Positions 22,011 through 23,415 of a stretch of DNA of 35,815 nt are shown one piece after another. The stretch is from Chloroflexota bacterium. Its GTDB lineage: Bacteria > Chloroflexota > Dehalococcoidia > DSTF01 > RBG-16-68-14. The DNA is taken from positions 1 to 35,815 of the forward strand of contig JADFKB010000016.1 of the NCBI GenBank assembly GCA_022565155.1, read 5' to 3'. The stretch's first letter is position 1. Each line of letters begins with the position of its first letter. The translations under genes were made by a program, and so were the position numbers. A model generated the notes under the pieces. It was given only the letters and a program-made list of their open reading frames with translations, searched no databases and had not been told where the DNA came from.

Positions 22011-22907
22011 TCAGACCGCTAGCTGGAGCTGCCCCGCCGCTGGCTTTGGTTCCTGCCGGTCGGGAGTCATCCCCCAGCGTTCGCGCAACTCCTGGACGGT
22101 CTCATGCACCTCTTCGCTGTAACGCTTCGGGGCGTAGGCGCCGCGATACATGCGCTCGTATCGTGGCAGCAGGTGCGGATACGTCTCCCGCAGGAATGGC
22201 ATGAACCACTCTTTCGTGCCCCGCTGCAGGTAGAGCACGTTGTCGCCGACGAAGGAAGCGCCGTAGTCGCGCGCCGCCTTCATCACCGACTCCAGGTTCT
22301 CGCGGTCGTCGGTCAGGCTGGGGATGATCGGCGCCAGCATCACGCCGCAGCGGACGCCGGCTTCCGACAGTTTCGCCATCGCCTCCAGCCGCTGGACGGG
22401 CCGCGCTGTCTCCGGCTCGATGTGCTGCCAGACCTCCTCGCGCAGCGTGGCGATGCTGAAGAGAACCGTGCACTCGGCGACGCCGGAGAGCTCCTGCAGC
22501 AGCGACAAGTCACGGGTCACGTTGGGCGATTTGGTGATGATCGAGCAGGGATTGGCGTGGTCGCGGAACGCCTGCAGGGAGGCGCGGGTGAGGCCGTACT
22601 TCAGCTCTGCCTGCTGGTAGGGGTCGCAGGCCGTGCCGATCGTGACGGATTCTCGCCGCCAGCGCGGCCGGCTCAGCTCGCGGCGGAGCACCGACGCCAG
22701 GTTCGTCTTGACGACGATGCGCTGATCGAAGTCCTTGCCCGTGTTGTAACCCAGAAACTCATGGTTGCCGCGCGCGAAGCAGTAGACGCAGGCGTGCTGG
22801 CAGCCTCGATAGGGGTTCAAGCTCCAGCGCATGGAGGGCATGGACGGTACGCGCACCCGGTTCAGCGCGCTCTTGCACTCGATCTCTTCGAACGTTACCT
22901 GGGGCAT
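22011..22907 (-). CDS. Rv2578c-family radical SAM protein (spore-photoproduct-lyase-like)
   Basis: 298 residues with a GGAGG ribosome-binding site. The radical SAM cluster cysteines are C36, C40 and C43 in GCQHACVYCFAR, the CxxxCxxC spacing. The preceding SLNPYRGC and following NHEFLGYNTGKDFDQRIVVKTN match the Rv2578c/SPL group. TIGTACDPYQQAE and SIITKSPNVTRDL belong to the (beta/alpha) barrel. The SPL family includes the repair enzyme for spore photoproduct; whether this member repairs DNA is unproven. Its promoter contains two LexA-like palindromes, which supports a DNA-damage role. Confidence 0.88.
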   Translation of the reverse strand: MPQVTFEEIECKSALNRVRVPSMPSMRWSLNPYRGCQHACVYCFARGNHEFLGYNTGKDFDQRIVVKTNLASVLRRELSRPRWRRESVTIGTACDPYQQAELKYGLTRASLQAFRDHANPCSIITKSPNVTRDLSLLQELSGVAECTVLFSIATLREEVWQHIEPETARPVQRLEAMAKLSEAGVRCGVMLAPIIPSLTDDRENLESVMKAARDYGASFVGDNVLYLQRGTKEWFMPFLRETYPHLLPRYERMYRGAYAPKRYSEEVHETVQELRERWGMTPDRQEPKPAAGQLQLAV

Positions 22908-22927: not shown

Positions 22928-22976
22928 GAATAGACGTTCTTATCCAGATAGTAATACGAACAAGTGTTCTTGTCAA
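22928..22976 (-). promoter_or_regulatory. SOS-like promoter with two LexA-type palindromes
   Basis: Minus strand: -35 TTGACA (22971-22976), 17-nt spacer, -10 TACTAT (22948-22953). Inside the spacer lies GAACAAGTGTTC (22958-22969, plus-strand orientation), a perfect match to GAAC-N4-GTTC, the Gram-positive-type LexA box. A second copy with one mismatch, GAATAGACGTTC (22928-22939), lies just after the expected transcription start, 30 bp centre to centre. Both positions would block RNA polymerase. Confidence 0.7.
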
Positions 22977-23009: not shown

Positions 23010-23015
23010 TATAAT
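23010..23015 (+). promoter_or_regulatory. -10 box of the 130-residue gene (leaderless)
   Basis: TATAAT at 23010-23015 ends 7 nt before ATG 23023. Divergent from the radical SAM promoter. Confidence 0.5.
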
Positions 23016-23022
23016 TCGGGTG

Positions 23023-23415
23023 ATGTCAGAACTTTCGGATGACCCGATGGCGCGGAAGCAGCAAGCCGACCTGCTGCTGGAGCGTACAGGGCTGCAGCTC
23101 CGGCAGCTTCTACAGGAGGCGGCCGGCAAGCTCCAGCCGTTTCCGCCTTTTCCCGGCGCCTTCTTCACGAACGCGATCGAGGTGGAAGCGAAGGCCGCCG
23201 AAAGCTCCGGTCGAGGTTGTATCGTTGTCTGCGAGGATGGCGAGCTGTATGAGCTGGAGATGAGCATCGATTTCTCCGACGACGCCGAAGACCCCGTCTC
23301 GGCGCGCGACGAGAAGCTGAAGAAGCTGGACGGCCTCCATCCGCGCGACTACGTGGCGCTCGCCTACGACGCGATCACGCGCATCACCGAGCAGCTGATG
23401 GAACGGAGCGAGTAG
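23023..23415 (+). CDS. Hypothetical protein, 130 residues
   Basis: Start ATG 23023 (MSELSDDPMARKQQ) is chosen because a consensus TATAAT lies 7 nt upstream; longer in-frame extensions would run through the divergent promoter. The protein is soluble and acidic, with an N-terminal helix (ARKQQADLLLERTGLQLRQLLQEA), a central beta portion (GCIVVCEDGELYELEMSIDFSDDAED) and a C-terminal helix (RDYVALAYDAITRITEQLMERSE). I recognise no family. It is divergently transcribed from the SOS-like gene, and the two start codons are about 115 nt apart. Confidence 0.7.
   Translation: MSELSDDPMARKQQADLLLERTGLQLRQLLQEAAGKLQPFPPFPGAFFTNAIEVEAKAAESSGRGCIVVCEDGELYELEMSIDFSDDAEDPVSARDEKLKKLDGLHPRDYVALAYDAITRITEQLMERSE

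Follow-up and report, generated by a model that had tools for sequence, protein, structure and literature searches.

A radical SAM gene and its promoter

A radical SAM gene in a genome of the phylum Chloroflexota raises the question of whether LexA controls its expression and what its product does after DNA damage. We analysed the gene within a stretch of 35,815 nucleotides (hereafter referred to as the window). The gene (22011–22907, minus strand, with its ATG at 22907) encodes a 298-aa protein that, by NCBIfam and Pfam profiles, resembles the Rv2578c and PA0069 proteins and carries a CX3CX2C cluster motif (CQHACVYC). Its promoter, on the same strand, comprises the −35 hexamer TTGACA (22971–22976) and the −10 hexamer TACTAT (22948–22953), separated by 17 bp.

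The spacer between the hexamers holds a LexA-type palindrome, GAACAAGTGTTC (box 1, 22958–22969), which reads GAACACTTGTTC on the minus strand and matches GAAC-N4-GTTC exactly. A further LexA-type palindrome, GAATAGACGTTC (box 2, 22928–22939; GAACGTCTATTC on the minus strand), has one mismatch to this pattern and lies just past the expected transcription start (~22941), at about +2 and 30 bp from box 1, centre to centre. With one box between the hexamers and the other past the expected start, the boxes are placed where a bound repressor would block RNA polymerase. The original prediction, made from the letters of the window, had described both boxes and their repressor-type placement, and the positions in the sequence bear this out. 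Its other statements on the sequence hold as well; of the two hexamers, only the −35 is a perfect consensus, and TACTAT is two bases off TATAAT.

To score these sites, we used a 14-bp weight matrix derived solely from 20 lexA promoters of this genome and its relatives. Three sites in the window reach at least 10 bits, with boxes 1 and 2 ranking first and second (18.1 and 13.5 bits, respectively), and box 1 is the only perfect GAACN4GTTC in these 36 kb. Dinucleotide shuffling of the promoter never reached the observed score (0 of 300 shuffles). In the 2.8-Mb draft genome, the bare 12-mer GAACN4GTTC occurs at 40 sites, most of them within long open reading frames (ORFs), versus 29 for the reversed control, and we discarded this count as uninformative on its own. 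A composite pattern of TTGAC, 1–10 bases and GAACN4GTTC has three matches in the genome versus none in the reversed control, and 16 versus 3 over six genomes of the family. The three matches in the genome precede the radical SAM gene, an ImuB-like polymerase gene and an HD-domain gene. The weight of the evidence lies in promoter placement and conservation, not in the bare motif count.

The lexA promoter carries the same box

The genome encodes one strong LexA, with LexA_DNA_bind and Peptidase_S24 domains; a second LexA_DNA_bind match falls below the cut-off and is HrcA-like by translation. The lexA promoter is arranged as TTGACA-17-TATGTT, and the stretch after its −10 hexamer reads AGAACACTCGTTCC, placing the box GAACACTCGTTC just past the −10. 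At 11 of 12 bases, this box agrees with the minus-strand reading of box 1, so the radical SAM box matches the organism's own lexA box. All 20 lexA promoters from which the matrix was built carry GAAC-N4-GTTY just past the −10. In family f4, one half-site is GTTT in both the lexA and the radical SAM boxes, indicating that the two change together. The radical SAM gene and lexA lie ~4–5 kb apart in three genomes of this family (G011, G013 and G014; L015, L016 and L021 with L084, L089 and L082).

At recA, we found no strong box in this genome; the site read by eye, CGAACGTTTATGC, is weaker and degenerate. The recA boxes of the genome and its same-family relatives are degenerate, of the form GAAC-N4-ATGC, and strong recA boxes occur in two relatives from the class (G039 and G041). 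The original prediction had singled out lexA and recA for comparison, as the genes at which a different motif would tell against it. It survives this comparison at lexA, which carries the same box, while recA offers only the weaker, degenerate boxes.

Conservation of the box

We compared 24 radical SAM loci, from this genome and 23 relatives. The count for the class covers the 21 loci with at least 41% identity, the window's own included, and uses the lexA-only matrix at a threshold of 10 bits or more. At this threshold, 19 of the 21 promoters contain a box, nearly all never matched by shuffles, so the upstream regions of homologues, to which the original prediction had looked for confirmation, do keep the site. 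The box at this threshold is absent from the class orthologues in G049 and G021, and the three most distant loci (33–35% identity) have no box. TTGAC(A) stands beside the box in most relatives, and the box comes straight after TTGACA in nearly all members of families f1 and f4. Six relatives with TTGACA promoters in these two families (L011, L012, L015, L017, L019 and L021) carry a second box 34–41 bp further downstream, an arrangement similar to the pair in the window. As for the other side of the gene, we weighed an operon with the cysM-like gene located downstream and rejected it: over the short stretches of neighbouring loci compared, this arrangement is kept only in G003.

For a wider sample, 80 named loci were gathered with a profile of the radical SAM protein, with phyla taken from the record titles and tallied by hand. 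An upstream box of at least 10 bits is present at 14 of 17 loci in Chloroflexota, 9 of 9 in Actinomycetota and 3 of 4 in Bacillota (26 of 30 combined) versus 2 of 50 in other phyla; the three named Chloroflexota loci that lack a strong upstream box are L101–L103. At a threshold of 13 bits or more, there are 28 sites in the 19,395 upstream bases of the 80 loci versus 13 in the 483,852 other bases. The nearest named relative of the protein is encoded by a Dehalococcoidia metagenome-assembled genome (60% identity), so the window probably belongs to this class of Chloroflexota. On a quick tree of 104 proteins the box state needs nine changes. The box tracks the phyla with a GAAC-type LexA. This serves as a natural control, indicating that the gene alone does not bring the box.

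Other genes with LexA-type boxes

Elsewhere in the genome, boxes are found in the promoters of the IMS-domain ImuB-like polymerase gene (L039/L197), the HD-domain gene (L071/L207) and rmuC (L074). In the HD-domain gene (HD_assoc_2; L071 2081–3897; G000:C176, about 5028), the LexA-type box lies between TTGACA and TATAAT. The gene is followed by an ORF of 174 aa that matches no Pfam family, and the two possibly form an SOS-controlled pair. The rmuC gene (L074 112, G000:C39) has the box GAACATACGTTC ~40 bp ahead of its start and may be SOS-controlled as well. In a same-family genome, a box precedes a gene that, judged by its translation, encodes a DnaE-type polymerase (L204).

An ORF for a 31-aa Cys-rich, zinc-ribbon-like peptide, MKRHRCPDCGGPLVYGEGCSCCPICGFTACG or a close variant, one with a longer tail, is present in each of the other five family genomes (L196, L198, L199, L200 and L211 in G003, G001, G004, G005 and G002, respectively); none was seen among the loci examined in the window's own genome. 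In the promoter of this ORF, TTGACA is followed by a LexA-type box, and another box-like site lies ahead of the start codon. At L215 (G004:C11, about 56890–56945), a promoter-like stretch with three consecutive GAAC/GTTC-type sites lies before an ORF of ~32 aa. These searches provide a first list of putative SOS genes for the window's Chloroflexota lineage.

Family and fold of the enzyme

The radical SAM protein matches NF038135 (rSAM_Rv2578c) over nearly its full length with 326.8 bits, followed by NF033668 (rSAM_PA0069) with 236 bits; PF04055 also matches. Because 326.8 bits is under the NF038135 equivalog cut-off of 430, the profile scores identify the protein as a relative of this family, not as a certified member. 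The designation Rv2578c-type in the original prediction is accurate as the nearest named family, but not as membership. PA0069 belongs to the LexA regulon of Pseudomonas aeruginosa.

In the structure model (mean pLDDT of 75.6, with the cluster loop poorly modelled), the top six fold matches in the PDB are all spore photoproduct lyase (E values of 1.6e-7 to 9.5e-7, TM of about 0.6, 16–18% identity). Pyruvate formate-lyase activase and lipoyl synthase are among the further matches. Profile searches of PDB sequences again rank spore photoproduct lyase first. Against TIGR04070, the spore photoproduct lyase model, the protein scores 28.1 bits versus a cut-off of 400. The relation to spore photoproduct lyase in the original prediction is therefore upheld at the level of fold, whereas the similarity in sequence is weak. 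Among 251 Chloroflexota genomes, none yielded a true spore photoproduct lyase, so the substrate of the radical SAM enzyme cannot be assumed.

Two cysteines stand out in the alignment. C11, in a CK(S/T) motif, does not vary among the nine relatives aligned. C94, in an ACDPYQ motif, is conserved in the nearer relatives, and three others have Thr there. Each of the two is a possible catalytic residue. The hydrogen-donor cysteine of spore photoproduct lyase is C140/C141, and for such a donor C94 is a candidate position only. A DNA lesion is a plausible substrate.

Proposed control of the radical SAM gene

Judged by sequence, placement and conservation, the two palindromes are almost certainly LexA binding sites over the promoter, and SOS control of the gene is very likely. 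We infer the following course of repression and induction. In undamaged cells, LexA dimers would occupy box 1, within the RNA polymerase footprint from −35 to −10, and box 2, where the transcript begins, and prevent initiation. Upon damage, RecA filaments would form and LexA would cleave itself, thereby derepressing the radical SAM gene along with lexA, the gene for the ImuB-like translesion polymerase and further genes. The enzyme, with its spore-photoproduct-lyase-like fold, would then probably repair or process a damaged nucleic-acid product. We hold with high confidence that the gene belongs to the LexA (SOS) regulon and that its product probably handles damaged nucleic acid.

Three alternatives dispute the identity or the target of the boxes. 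Chance palindromes over an ordinary promoter have next to no probability: although the genome holds about 30–40 copies of the bare motif, mostly expected by chance, this explanation is refuted by the conservation of the box in 19 of the 21 class promoters, with the shuffle controls and the composite count of 3 versus 0 pointing the same way. We also consider it highly improbable that the boxes serve the divergent gene (23023–23415, plus strand), which encodes 130 aa without a family match and starts about 55–60 bp from box 1. Box 1 lies within the spacer of the radical SAM promoter, not of the divergent one, and the divergent gene adjoins the radical SAM gene only in four same-family loci, whereas the box persists with the radical SAM gene in other families. 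A TATAAT at 23010–23015 precedes this gene; since the TATAAT is only a few bases ahead of the GTG/ATG start, its transcript is probably leaderless, and it is not clearly part of the SOS unit. A different repressor that recognizes GAAC-N4-GTTC, for example, a prophage-type S24 repressor, might control the promoter instead of LexA, given that GAAC-type palindromes are not exclusive to LexA and that some relatives (G014 and G021) have a second LexA-like gene. This is very improbable in a genome whose single strong LexA_DNA_bind match is LexA itself, where the same box lies at lexA, and in view of the joint change of the lexA and radical SAM motifs in family f4.

A further alternative accepts the LexA sites as genuine and disputes only the substrate, with the enzyme acting on RNA, protein or a small molecule instead of DNA. 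Radical SAM folds are common to many chemistries, as the matches to pyruvate formate-lyase activase and lipoyl synthase illustrate, and both the weak sequence similarity to spore photoproduct lyase and the absence of a true one from the 251 genomes are in its favour. By contrast, the six best fold matches, the control that the gene has in common with lexA and the ImuB-like polymerase gene, and SOS control across several phyla all suit DNA repair. We regard a non-DNA substrate as a serious but somewhat doubtful possibility, and favour SOS control of an enzyme that handles damaged nucleic acid.

SOS control of radical SAM genes in other phyla

Related genes have been placed under SOS control before. 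In 2012, splB was predicted to be SOS-controlled in Alpha- and Betaproteobacteria (PMC3323433); SplB (COG1533) is among the SOS genes of Bacteroidetes, stated as shown in several species (PMC8565304); and a radical SAM protein belongs to the core Gram-positive and Balneolaeota SOS regulons (PMC7739468). The Streptomyces venezuelae radical SAM gene vnz_31145 is up about 20-fold in mitomycin and has a LexA ChIP peak (PMC9380542). A 'DNA repair photolyase' of Mycobacterium tuberculosis, which we infer to be Rv2578c, is induced by mitomycin, and its induction depends on RecA (PMC8151990). The original prediction had offered SOS control as a new link for this enzyme family, but it is already published for other phyla. 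Our literature searches returned no paper that contains LexA together with Rv2578c or PA0069, nor did they yield one on LexA in Dehalococcoidia with a bearing on control of the radical SAM gene.

The persistence of SOS control across phyla and through changes of the LexA motif suggests that these enzymes are important once DNA is damaged. It marks out the family as a promising place to look for an uncharacterised DNA repair activity and allows a simple functional test in any culturable actinobacterium or bacillus. What the enzyme repairs is the question of real interest. It is quite possible, although we stop short of calling it probable, that phyla with a GAAC-type LexA, among them the largely uncultured Dehalococcoidia-type Chloroflexota, have long had at the core of their SOS response an SOS-induced, light-independent radical SAM enzyme that processes DNA lesions and differs from spore photoproduct lyase.

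Comparison with known systems

Among characterized enzymes, spore photoproduct lyase (PF20903, TIGR04070; PDB 4FHC) is the best structural match, with the radical SAM fold in common; unlike it, the protein studied here is far under the TIGR04070 cut-off and has no visible link to sporulation. With the Rv2578c family (NF038135), it shares the cluster motif and a match over nearly the full length, but scores under the equivalog cut-off. The S. venezuelae gene vnz_31145 is also a radical SAM gene, and its product has been likened to enzymes that repair UV thymine cross-links (PMC9380542); its box, TCGACCGTTCGCTC, is weaker than the boxes in the window, and the likeness is at the level of a radical SAM gene. 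The SOS-controlled splB/COG1533 genes (PMC3323433, PMC8565304 and PMC7739468) likewise encode radical SAM relatives of spore photoproduct lyase and are governed by LexA. However, the LexA sites of Alpha- and Betaproteobacteria, Bacteroidetes and Balneolaeota are other motifs, whereas the motif in Chloroflexota here is GAAC-N4-GTTC. What is new is that conserved DNA sites very probably extend the SOS control of SplB-type radical SAM genes to Dehalococcoidia-type Chloroflexota.
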